Of a DNA stretch of 64,000 nt, positions 29,840 to 33,879 are shown piece after piece. Under the pieces are notes generated by a model, which had not been told where the DNA came from, searched no databases, and saw only the letters and a list, made by a program, of their open reading frames with translations. The stretch is from Actinomycetes bacterium. GTDB lineage: Bacteria > Actinomycetota > Actinomycetes > Streptosporangiales > Streptosporangiaceae. The position numbers and the translations under genes are program-made. Positions within the stretch are counted from its first letter, which is position 1; each line of letters opens with the position of its first letter. The stretch covers positions 1 through 64,000 of the forward strand of contig JAOPYO010000017.1 of the NCBI GenBank assembly GCA_025964575.1, in the 5' to 3' direction.

Positions 29840-30238
29840 TTGATCATCGTTGGCCTCGCCGTGCCGTATGTGGGGCATGCGCTGCTGAATCCGTGGGCCA
29901 TATCGTTGACCGGGCAGCCGACGCTGACCGGCTACTGGCAGGGCGAGGTGGTGTTGGCGCCAGGCGACCAGCGGCGGGTGGTCATCGATCTGCGCTCCGA
30001 TCCGGGGAGAGGTAGGTGCCCAGATTGCTCGCCGATTGACGGTGACCTCAGGGTGTGCGCAGGAGCACGGCCCATGACCTATCGATTCACCGGCAAGGTG
30101 CAGGGCCGCCACGCTCGCCGCTTCTCGCTCAGCGTCACTCCATGTGAACGCGCCGGCATGTGTCTGCGCCGGCTCGACGGAATTTGGGACAACGTCGAGG
30201 TCCATCACCAGACGGCGACGGTGGCGTTCGACGCTTAG
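29840..30238 (+). CDS. Hypothetical protein with N-terminal hydrophobic segment
   Basis: 132-aa ORF; convergent with the clpX-like gene, stop codons overlap. Confidence 0.55.
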
Positions 30239-31392
30239 GCAGATTTTTCGCGGCGCTCCCGTTTGTGGTCGGGCTGCTGTCGCGGCACCAGGGTCGGGTT
30301 GACGTTGTGGAGCACGGTGTCGCGGTTGACCACGACGCGGGCGACGTCGTTCCGGCTCGGTACCTCGTACATCACGTTGAGCAGGATCTCTTCGAGGATC
30401 GCTCGGGTCGCTCGGGCGCCGGTGCGGCGGAGCAGTGCCTGTTCGGCGATCGCGCCGATGGCGTCGTCGGTGAACTCCAGCTCGACGCCGTCGATCTCGA
30501 AGAGCTTTTGGTATTGCTTGATCAGCGCGTTGCGTGGCTCGGTGAGGATCCGCCTCAACGCCGTCCGGTCCAGCGGCTGGAAGGTCGACACGACGGGGAG
30601 CCGGCCGACGAACTCCGGGATCAGCCCGAACTTCAGCAGGTCCTCGGGCATGACCTCGGCAAAGGCGTCCTCCTTCTCCCGTTCCTGCTTGGTGCGGATC
30701 GCGGCGCCGAACCCGGCGCCCTTGCGGTTGGCCCGCTGCTCGATGATCCGTTCCAGGCCGGCGAACGCACCGCCGACGATGAACAGCACGTTGCTCGTGT
30801 CGATCTGGAGGAACTCCTGGTGCGGGTGCTTGCGGCCGCCCTGCGGCGGCACACTCGCGGTGGTGCCCTCCAGGATCTTCAGCAGCGCCTGCTGGACGCC
30901 CTCGCCGGAGACGTCTCGGGTGATCGAGGGGTTCTCGCTCTTGCGGGCGATCTTGTCGATCTCATCGATGTAGATAATGCCGGTCTCGGCCTTCGTGACA
31001 TCGTAGTCGGCGGCCTGGATCAGCTTCAGCAGGATGTTGGACTTGGCGAGCTCGACCGGCTCTTCCTTCGCGGCGTACTGCCCGTTCCCACCGGCTCCCG
31101 CCCGGATGCGTTTGTAGTGGTTGTAGACCGCCACCGAGAGCACCTTCTTGGCGTTCTCCTGCTCGACGACGTACTGCTCGAGGAACTCGTAGATCTCCCG
31201 CGGTTTCGGCAGTTCCTGCAGCCCGCCCTCGGCGGACTCGTTGAGCTCCTCCTCGATAAGCTCGTTACAGAGCTCGACGCACTCGTCACAGATATAGACA
31301 CCAGCCGGACCCGCGATGAGCTTACGAACCTGCTTCTGGCTCTTCCCGCAGAACGTGCACTTCAGCAGGTCGCCGTTACTGGTGCGTGCCAT
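30235..31392 (-). CDS. ClpX-family protein lacking Walker A and pore-1 loop
   Basis: Zinc-binding domain [31 protein letters not shown], Walker [38 protein letters not shown] retained; [19 protein letters not shown] shows loss of the GPTGSGKT...GYVGEDVE segment; SD TTGAGGAG before ATG. Confidence 0.93.
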
Positions 31393-31456
31393 TCGGAAAC
31401 GTCTCCTCAACGGTTGTGCGGGCCGGAGCGCGGGAGGACCAGGTCAGGCCTGGGGG

Positions 31457-32668
31457 TCAGAGGATCACGGGCAGTGACGCCAGACGCCAGGTGCCCGGGT
31501 CGGGGACGCGCACTTCTTCCGGGGCGACGGCCAGCGCCAGGTCGGGAAAGCGGTGCAGCAGTGCGGTGAGCGCGACCTCGGTCTGTACGCGGGCCAGCGA
31601 CGCCCCGAGACAGAAGTGTGGCCCGTGGGCGAAGCCCAGGTGGCCCGAAGGTCCTGCGGCTCGGCTGATGTCGAGCCGGTCGGGGTCGGCGAACGCGCGC
31701 GGGTCGCGGTTGGCGGCGGCGATCGCGGCGGTGACGGGCTCGCCCGTGCGCACCAGCGCGCCGCAGAGCTCGACGTCCTCCCGCGCGTAGCGGGGTATCG
31801 ACAGCAGTGTCGGACCGCACCAGCGCATCAGCTCCTCGACGGCGCGCGGCATGAGCCCGGGATCCTCGCGCAACGCGGCGAGCTGTCCGGGGTGGGAGAG
31901 CAGGGCCGCCACGGCGTTGGCGATCAGGTTCGTGGGCGTCTGTCCCGCGAGGACCAGGTGCCAGACCAGCGTGACCGCCTCGGTGTCGCTGAGCCGATCC
32001 CCGTCCTCGGCCTGCACGCGGATGAGGTCCGAGACCAGGTCGTCACCGGGTTCGTCATGTCGGCGTGCTATCGCCGCCTTGGCGCCTTCCATGATGCCCG
32101 GTATGGCCTCGGCGAACCCCTGGCCCGAGCCTGCCGCGATGGTGGCACCGTACTCGCGCCACCGCGGGCGGTCGGGCTCGGGAATGCCGACCAGCTCGCA
32201 GATCACCTCGATCGGCAACGGCCGCGCGAAGTGCCGCAGCAGGTCCACCGAGCCGCGCTCGGCGTGGCCCGGCAGGTTGTCGAGCAGGTTCTCGACGATC
32301 GGCTCGTTCCGCGGCCGGAACTCGGCGGCGCGGCGCGCGGTGAACGCGGGTGCCACCAGCCTGCGCAGCCGCGCGTGCTCCGGCCCCTCCATTTCGGTCA
32401 TGGTCCGCATGTAAGGCAGACAGTCTTCGGGTACGTCCGGTCGGATGAAGCTGCCGGCGTTGATCTCGAACCGCGGGTCGCCCAGCATCGCCCTGGCGCT
32501 CTCGTGCCGGGTGAGGGCCCACATCGGGCCGAGACCGGGGATCAGGAGCCGCGCCAGCGGCGAGCGCTCTCGGGCGTGCCCGTAAGCGGCAAAGGGGTCG
32601 CGTAGCACCTCGGTGTCGGTGAGGTCGATCTCGGGGACGCCGCTCACATCGAGGCTGGTGCCGGTCAT
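31457..32668 (-). CDS. Cytochrome P450
   Basis: LAGQTPTNLI I-helix, EELMRW ExxR, LGFAHGPHFCLGASLARVQ heme loop. Confidence 0.95.
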   Translation of the reverse strand: MTGTSLDVSGVPEIDLTDTEVLRDPFAAYGHARERSPLARLLIPGLGPMWALTRHESARAMLGDPRFEINAGSFIRPDVPEDCLPYMRTMTEMEGPEHARLRRLVAPAFTARRAAEFRPRNEPIVENLLDNLPGHAERGSVDLLRHFARPLPIEVICELVGIPEPDRPRWREYGATIAAGSGQGFAEAIPGIMEGAKAAIARRHDEPGDDLVSDLIRVQAEDGDRLSDTEAVTLVWHLVLAGQTPTNLIANAVAALLSHPGQLAALREDPGLMPRAVEELMRWCGPTLLSIPRYAREDVELCGALVRTGEPVTAAIAAANRDPRAFADPDRLDISRAAGPSGHLGFAHGPHFCLGASLARVQTEVALTALLHRFPDLALAVAPEEVRVPDPGTWRLASLPVIL

Positions 32669-32772
32669 GAATTCTCCCGAATTTCGGATGTTCTAATCAT
32701 ATGATCTCATCATCTGGATGGTCACGGTATCTTGGATCGCGGCGCGCGGCAATCGCTGGGACGAGGAGGACG

Positions 32773-33879
32773 ATGGGCCGGCTCACCAGGACAGAAATGC
32801 AAGGGCTCAACCGCGCCAAGGTGCTGGCCGCTGCCAGGGACGAGTTCGCCGAGCGCGGCTTCCGCGACGCCAAGATCGACAGCATCGCCGAGCGCGCCGG
32901 GCTCACCCGCGGCGGGGTCTATTCCAACTTCCCCGGCAAACGGGCCCTCTACTTCGCCGTCCTGGCCGACCTCGCCGAGCGTGCACCCGAGCCGCCACAC
33001 CCGGAGCCGGACCGCACCGCTCGCGAGGCTCTCGGTGCGCTCGCCCGCGCCTGGGTCGCCCGGCTCCCCCTCGCCACGGATGAGCAGCACGGCGCGGCTC
33101 GGCTCAGTATGGATCTGATGCCCGAAATCATCGCCGAGGAGCGAACCCGCCAGCCGTTCGCGCAGCTGATGAAGCTGGACGCGATCCTGCTCGGACTGGC
33201 CCTGGAGCGGTTGCGGCCGTCCGGTACCCCGCCCGGCCGCCGGGTGCGCGTCGCGGAGGCTGTCCTCACGACCCTGCATGGCGCGAGCCAGATGGCCGCC
33301 GCCGCGCCCGGCTTCATCGAACCCTTCGACGTCATCAGCGTCTGCGAGCACCTGGCGGGTCTCGATCTGGGCGACGGGTGGGCGCCCCCGCACGTGCCAT
33401 GGATCCCGCAGGCGCGGCCCGCCGACGAGCCGTGGTCCCCTCCGCGCGCGGTGGACGCGGTGCGCGGCGAGCCCGCGCGGCTCACCGGCGACGGCGTGGT
33501 GGCGATTCTCGGGCTGCACCGGCTCGAAGCCGTCGAGGAGGCGGTGCGGGCCGCACCGCCCGGGACCCAGGTCACCGCCGTCCTGGTCACCGGCGACCCC
33601 GATGAGCTGGGACCGCTGGCGCGACTGGCCGTCGCCGACCTCTGCGGCTGCCTATGGCAGGCATTCCCGCCGTCGGCATGGCCGCGCCTGCAGCTGGTGT
33701 TCGACGACTCGGGCGCCCTCGCCGCGGCGGCCGGCGTGCCCGCCGTCAGCGACGCGACCGAGGTCGCCATCCGCATCGAGGCGGGCCGGATCGTCGCCCG
33801 AGCCGACGGCCGCGGCGCGTGCCACGCGGCCGCGTCCGCCGGTCAGCCCCAGACCTCGCCGGAGGGACACCGCAGGTAA
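32773..33879 (+). CDS. TetR-family regulator with about 150-aa C-terminal extension
   Basis: VLAAARDEFAERGFRDAKIDSIAERAGLTRGGVYSNFPGKRALYFAV HTH; C-terminus VAILGLHRLEAVEEAV...LQLVFDDSGALAAAAGVPAVSDATEVAIRIEAGRIVARADG. Confidence 0.9.
   Translation: MGRLTRTEMQGLNRAKVLAAARDEFAERGFRDAKIDSIAERAGLTRGGVYSNFPGKRALYFAVLADLAERAPEPPHPEPDRTAREALGALARAWVARLPLATDEQHGAARLSMDLMPEIIAEERTRQPFAQLMKLDAILLGLALERLRPSGTPPGRRVRVAEAVLTTLHGASQMAAAAPGFIEPFDVISVCEHLAGLDLGDGWAPPHVPWIPQARPADEPWSPPRAVDAVRGEPARLTGDGVVAILGLHRLEAVEEAVRAAPPGTQVTAVLVTGDPDELGPLARLAVADLCGCLWQAFPPSAWPRLQLVFDDSGALAAAAGVPAVSDATEVAIRIEAGRIVARADGRGACHAAASAGQPQTSPEGHRR

Follow-up and report, generated by a model that had tools for sequence, protein, structure and literature searches.

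A clpX paralogue of an actinomycete carrying an in-frame deletion of Walker A and the pore-1 loop between direct repeats: a probable early-stage pseudogene

In Escherichia coli ClpX the nucleotide is contacted by the Walker A motif and by box II, where the side chains of V78 and I79 make the contacts (PMC7112951). The mutants K125M, T126A and V78A/I79A are impaired in their use of ATP (PMC7112951). Additional copies of clpX have been described in Myxococcus xanthus, in which clpX2 and clpX3 are reported to be isolated genes outside the clpP operon that can be deleted and that have specialised roles in development and heat (PMC11423568). M. xanthus belongs to another phylum than the organism considered below, and the shared name alone implies no relation to the subfamily that we call ClpX2; the passages on these copies say nothing of a lost P-loop (PMC11423568). 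Our literature search found no description of a cassette of ClpX, cytochrome P450 and TetR genes, and nothing directly relevant on inactive ClpX paralogues.

The DNA analysed here, referred to as the window, is a stretch of 64,000 nucleotides (contig JAOPYO010000017.1, assembly GCA_025964575.1) from an actinomycete of the family Streptosporangiaceae. On its minus strand, at positions 30235–31392, lies a clpX paralogue of 385 amino acids, which lacks 46 codons and was recognised from its open reading frame, from alignments and from matches to the NCBIfam clpX equivalogs and Pfam; we assign it to an accessory ClpX subfamily, termed ClpX2 as defined in this analysis. The frame opens with ATG and continues without interruption to its stop codon, and a Shine–Dalgarno-like GAGGAG lies upstream of the ATG (31403–31408, minus strand). 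The window protein scores far above the cut-off of both canonical ClpX models used, NF003745 (PRK05342) and TIGR00382, and in each case the match is split into two stretches, the longer of which picks up again at residue 119. Pfam finds the domains zf-C4_ClpX, AAA_2 and ClpB_D2-small. As in canonical ClpX, and in the same order of parts, the protein has an N-terminal C4-type zinc-binding domain (PF06689, E = 1.8e-20), Walker B, the RKH loop (GRKHP) and the small AAA+ domain; the alignment also shows sensor II and the C-terminal REKSA to be kept. The initial annotation had listed the zinc-binding domain, Walker B and the RKH loop as retained, and both Pfam and the alignment agree. Unlike canonical ClpX, the window protein aligns without Walker A (the P-loop GPTGSGKT) and without the pore-1 loop GYVGED, has glutamate in place of G77 and reads AGF instead of IGF or LGF at the ClpP-docking tripeptide, and its gene stands outside the tig–clpP operon. 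The nearest ClpX2 paralogue, in genome G243 (L062, L089), stands in the same order of a TetR gene and a divergent P450–ClpX2 pair. The ClpX2 paralogues compared are full length with an intact P-loop and GYVGED, whereas the window protein lacks both.

The extent of the missing segment can be fixed from its flanks. In the window protein ELAKSNILL joins directly to the far side of the gap, and in all 53 intact homologues with a scorable motif two codon blocks for NIL(L/M) lie exactly 46 codons apart, so that exactly 46 codons (138 bp) are absent from the window gene, in frame. The loss of about 46 residues, Walker A and the pore-1 loop among them, that had been read from the window sequence is therefore exact. 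Against the best solved relative the match breaks off at residue 118 of the chain (query 122) and is taken up again at residue 160 (query 118). The part between Walker A and the pore-1 loop we take, from its position in the ClpX fold, to be a helix and a strand. The repeats exist because the ClpX protein has NILL at both places: an identical stretch of 11–13 bp, in register, is common to the two blocks in 36 of the 53 homologues, and in the nearest relative the repeat is AACATCTTGCT, spaced 138 bp from start to start. The window keeps a sole copy, AACATCCTGCTG, at the deletion junction, where it encodes NILL (31027–31038, minus strand; compared with relatives that have two copies). With repeats of this length spaced 138 bp apart in relatives and one copy left in the window, the window gene is the product to be expected if the repeats slipped or if a microhomology-mediated deletion took place, and either would explain the loss; the proposal of an in-frame deletion between short direct repeats has thus held up. 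As 138 is divisible by three, the loss has not closed the frame.

The deletion is known from a single genome. The P-loop and GYVGED are kept in all 27 ClpX2 relatives compared. In protein searches of 343 genomes of the family, 347 of the order and a sample of 395 of the class (overlapping sets), every match resumed at residue 118, and the segment is therefore present in those relatives. A degenerate pattern for the junction peptide, which misses deletions with other residues at the join, gave ten matches across about 85,000 species and none in a ClpX; as short unrelated frames, these ten were ruled out as instances of a shared deletion. Orthologues with the same deletion, for which the initial annotation had proposed a search, were thus found neither in the family, order and class sets nor in the wider scan.

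Two further departures had been noted in the protein, and they differ in meaning. Codon 77 is GAG (31162–31164, minus strand), so that box II reads YVVEQ instead of YVVGQ, as originally read; none of the other ClpX2 or canonical ClpX proteins compared departs from the glycine, and the glutamate is private to the window. Apart from G77E the window protein breaks no column that is otherwise invariant, and other ClpX2 proteins have 0–2 such changes each. By sequence comparison the count is therefore ordinary and the site is what is notable, as it lies in box II beside the positions (V78, I79) that touch the nucleotide in E. coli; no frameshift, no stop and no surplus of changes at invariant sites was found in the gene. 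The AGF tripeptide had also been read correctly, but it is not damage: 19 of the 24 ClpX2 relatives scored have AGF, and the remainder have VGF, IGF or SGF. AGF as a lesion was accordingly ruled out, since it is the norm of the subfamily. The subfamily members concerned are L011, L012 and L062–L088, and most of them have AGF. In E. coli ClpX the substitution I268L alone causes a severe defect in ClpP binding (PMC7112951). Because even so slight a change harms docking there, the docking of ClpX2 proteins to standard ClpP may in general be altered or weak, or they may work with another partner.

In a tree of 58 ClpX proteins the window protein groups with L062 of G243, apart from canonical clpX, with 87% protein identity to L062 over shared columns. 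For each half of the protein L062 is the nearest relative or shares that place with its closest kin (82% for the N-terminal and 89% for the C-terminal part), and the DNA identities of the two halves to L062 are 89% and 90%. A chimera of canonical clpX and ClpX2 was ruled out on this ground, and the reading of the gene as a paralogue, situated outside the tig–clpP1–clpP2–clpX locus, is supported. At a strict cut-off 33 of the 343 family genomes gave matches, a small number of which are second copies or borderline cases, and the subfamily is present in about 30 of the 343; the congener G001 has canonical clpX only. ClpX2 is thus patchy in its presence and dispensable in the family. Among the matches listed from plasmid records there was no close copy, the best identity being 65%.

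Directly upstream of clpX2 on the same strand, across a gap of 64 bp, lies a cytochrome P450 gene (31457–32668, minus strand) with an intact heme-ligand motif, FAHGPHFCLG, and divergent from this pair is a TetR-family regulator gene (32701–33879, plus strand), which adjoins ClpX2 in most related loci. Both look intact. The window TetR is long (392 aa), and about 200 of its C-terminal residues have no Pfam match. Homology to other ClpX2 loci ends near 30230, at the clpX2 stop, and near 33840–33875, at the end of the TetR gene; the unit 30230–33879 is common to genera of the family, and its flanks are unrelated. Gene calls at the other ClpX2 loci gave TetR in 14 and an intact P450 in six; L090 and L092 hold P450 remnants, and in L091, L094, L102 and L104 the P450 is mostly or wholly gone from between TetR and ClpX2. 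In several copies of the cassette, then, the P450 is lost or truncated while ClpX2 stays. This is an accessory module, some parts of which have disappeared from several lineages.

The retained codons of the window gene still bear the mark of purifying selection. The overall omega in a codon model of ten ClpX2 genes (383 codons) was 0.078; the window branch had 0.094 versus 0.077 for the background, a difference that is not significant (LRT 0.38). For the window branch the likelihood profile put the 95% limits at roughly 0.05 and 0.175 and spoke strongly against omega = 1, by a margin of 17.4 log-likelihood units, and under a mixture of selected and neutral evolution the neutral share of the branch is at most about a tenth. 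The proposed dN/dS comparison thus detected no relaxed selection on the retained coding sequence in the branch test of these ten genes. Since purifying selection covers most of the branch, two readings fit alike, a deletion of recent date or continued selection on what is left of the protein; a very recent pseudogene would look the same in selection tests.

From these observations, the window gene is probably a recently inactivated copy of a dispensable ClpX paralogue, an early-stage pseudogene with a product that is likely inert. The starting state would have been an accessory ClpX2 from the exchangeable TetR | P450–ClpX2 cassette. Recent slippage in the lineage of this strain between two direct repeats of 11–12 bp would then have removed 138 bp in frame, and with them Walker A, the helix and strand that follow it and the pore-1 loop. 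With Walker A gone and box II altered, the product is not expected to bind ATP, and without pore-1 it is not expected to grip substrates, so it would be unlikely to pull substrates as ClpX does; the predicted loss of canonical ATP-driven unfolding is in this sense supported. As the AAA+ core lacks a strand and a helix, misfolding is likely. A single-sequence AlphaFold model of the protein has a mean pLDDT of 40, too low to bear on the fold. The product would most likely be unstable or inert and presumably does nothing, and the gene would be on its way out. Inactivation is supported by the loss or truncation of the neighbouring P450 in several cassettes, parts of this module being prone to decay, and by G77E, a second change at the nucleotide site. 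Counting against it are the open frame, free of frameshifts and stops, and selection that is not detectably relaxed, whereas an older pseudogene would show signs of decay; on this reading the event would be recent. The initial annotation had left the choice between a freshly broken paralogue and a pseudo-unfoldase acting as adaptor or decoy: the former fits best, given a private deletion in a dispensable gene whose retained codons still show selection, and there is no specific evidence for the latter.

That the truncated protein is instead a functional pseudo-unfoldase, in which the zinc domain and the C-terminal small domain act as an adaptor, a decoy or a dominant-negative partner of full-length ClpX, seems unlikely. 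What leaves it some weight is that frame, zinc domain and C-terminus have all been preserved, and the selection signal with them. Substrate and adaptor binding and dimerisation are the roles that we assume for the zinc-binding domain in this scheme; Walker B, the RKH loop, the small domain, the start region and the Shine–Dalgarno sequence are intact as well, purifying selection acted on the window branch, and both lesions fall at the nucleotide site. Two changes of one branch at one functional site could mean that ATP binding in particular was lost, and not that the gene is decaying in general. Against this, the deletion occurs in a single genome, the selection signal would for the most part date from before the deletion, should this be recent, folding is probably harmed, and most of the ClpX2 subfamily already lacks IGF/LGF, so that docking to ClpP was probably weak beforehand. 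The narrower version, a retained ATP-independent protein for which the two lesions at the nucleotide site are either tolerable or adaptive and whose zinc domain regulates ClpX or ClpP, we regard as a little less probable still.

It is comparably doubtful that the strain has a full-length clpX2 of which 138 bp were lost in assembly, or that a minority variant was sequenced. The assembly is a draft (497 contigs, 94% complete), and the region of canonical clpX is missing from it too. Usual assembly k-mers are much longer than 11–12 bp, however, which argues against a collapse at so short a repeat; both halves of the gene are nearest to the same ClpX2 relative, with no chimera with canonical clpX, and the reading frame is otherwise clean.

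The genome (G000) has six full-length ClpP-type genes, the clpP1 of the canonical locus included, and a truncated clpP2 at the end of contig C183. ClpP-type genes lie on C183, C260 (8118–8719), C264 (4292–5445), C71 and C48, and the C260 gene is clpP2-like, with 81% DNA identity to the clpP2 of the congener. Judged by eye, no correlation is evident between the presence of ClpX2 and the number of ClpP genes.

A search of the assembly found no ClpX other than the window protein, but the idea that it is the strain's only ClpX, in a cell living with an ATP-less ClpX, is extremely improbable and was set aside, as the tree and both halves place the gene in ClpX2 and the canonical locus falls in an assembly gap. 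Contig C183 carries tig–clpP1 and ends 99 bases into the clpP2 domain match, and C495 ends with sequence that is located past clpX in the congener G001; a gap of about 2.3 kb is thus left between the two, and it is there that canonical clpX would be expected.

In the probable early-stage pseudogene an accessory gene is caught in the course of its inactivation, at a predictable site of slippage that the protein itself builds into high-GC clpX genes through two NILL motifs 46 codons apart. A truncated protein that proved to function would represent a natural ATP-less ClpX. The deletion itself is of modest interest. More may be gained from its setting, an actinomycete ClpX paralogue of patchy occurrence with a non-standard ClpP-docking tripeptide, located beside TetR and often a P450, and the TetR–P450–ClpX2 cassette is worth separate study.
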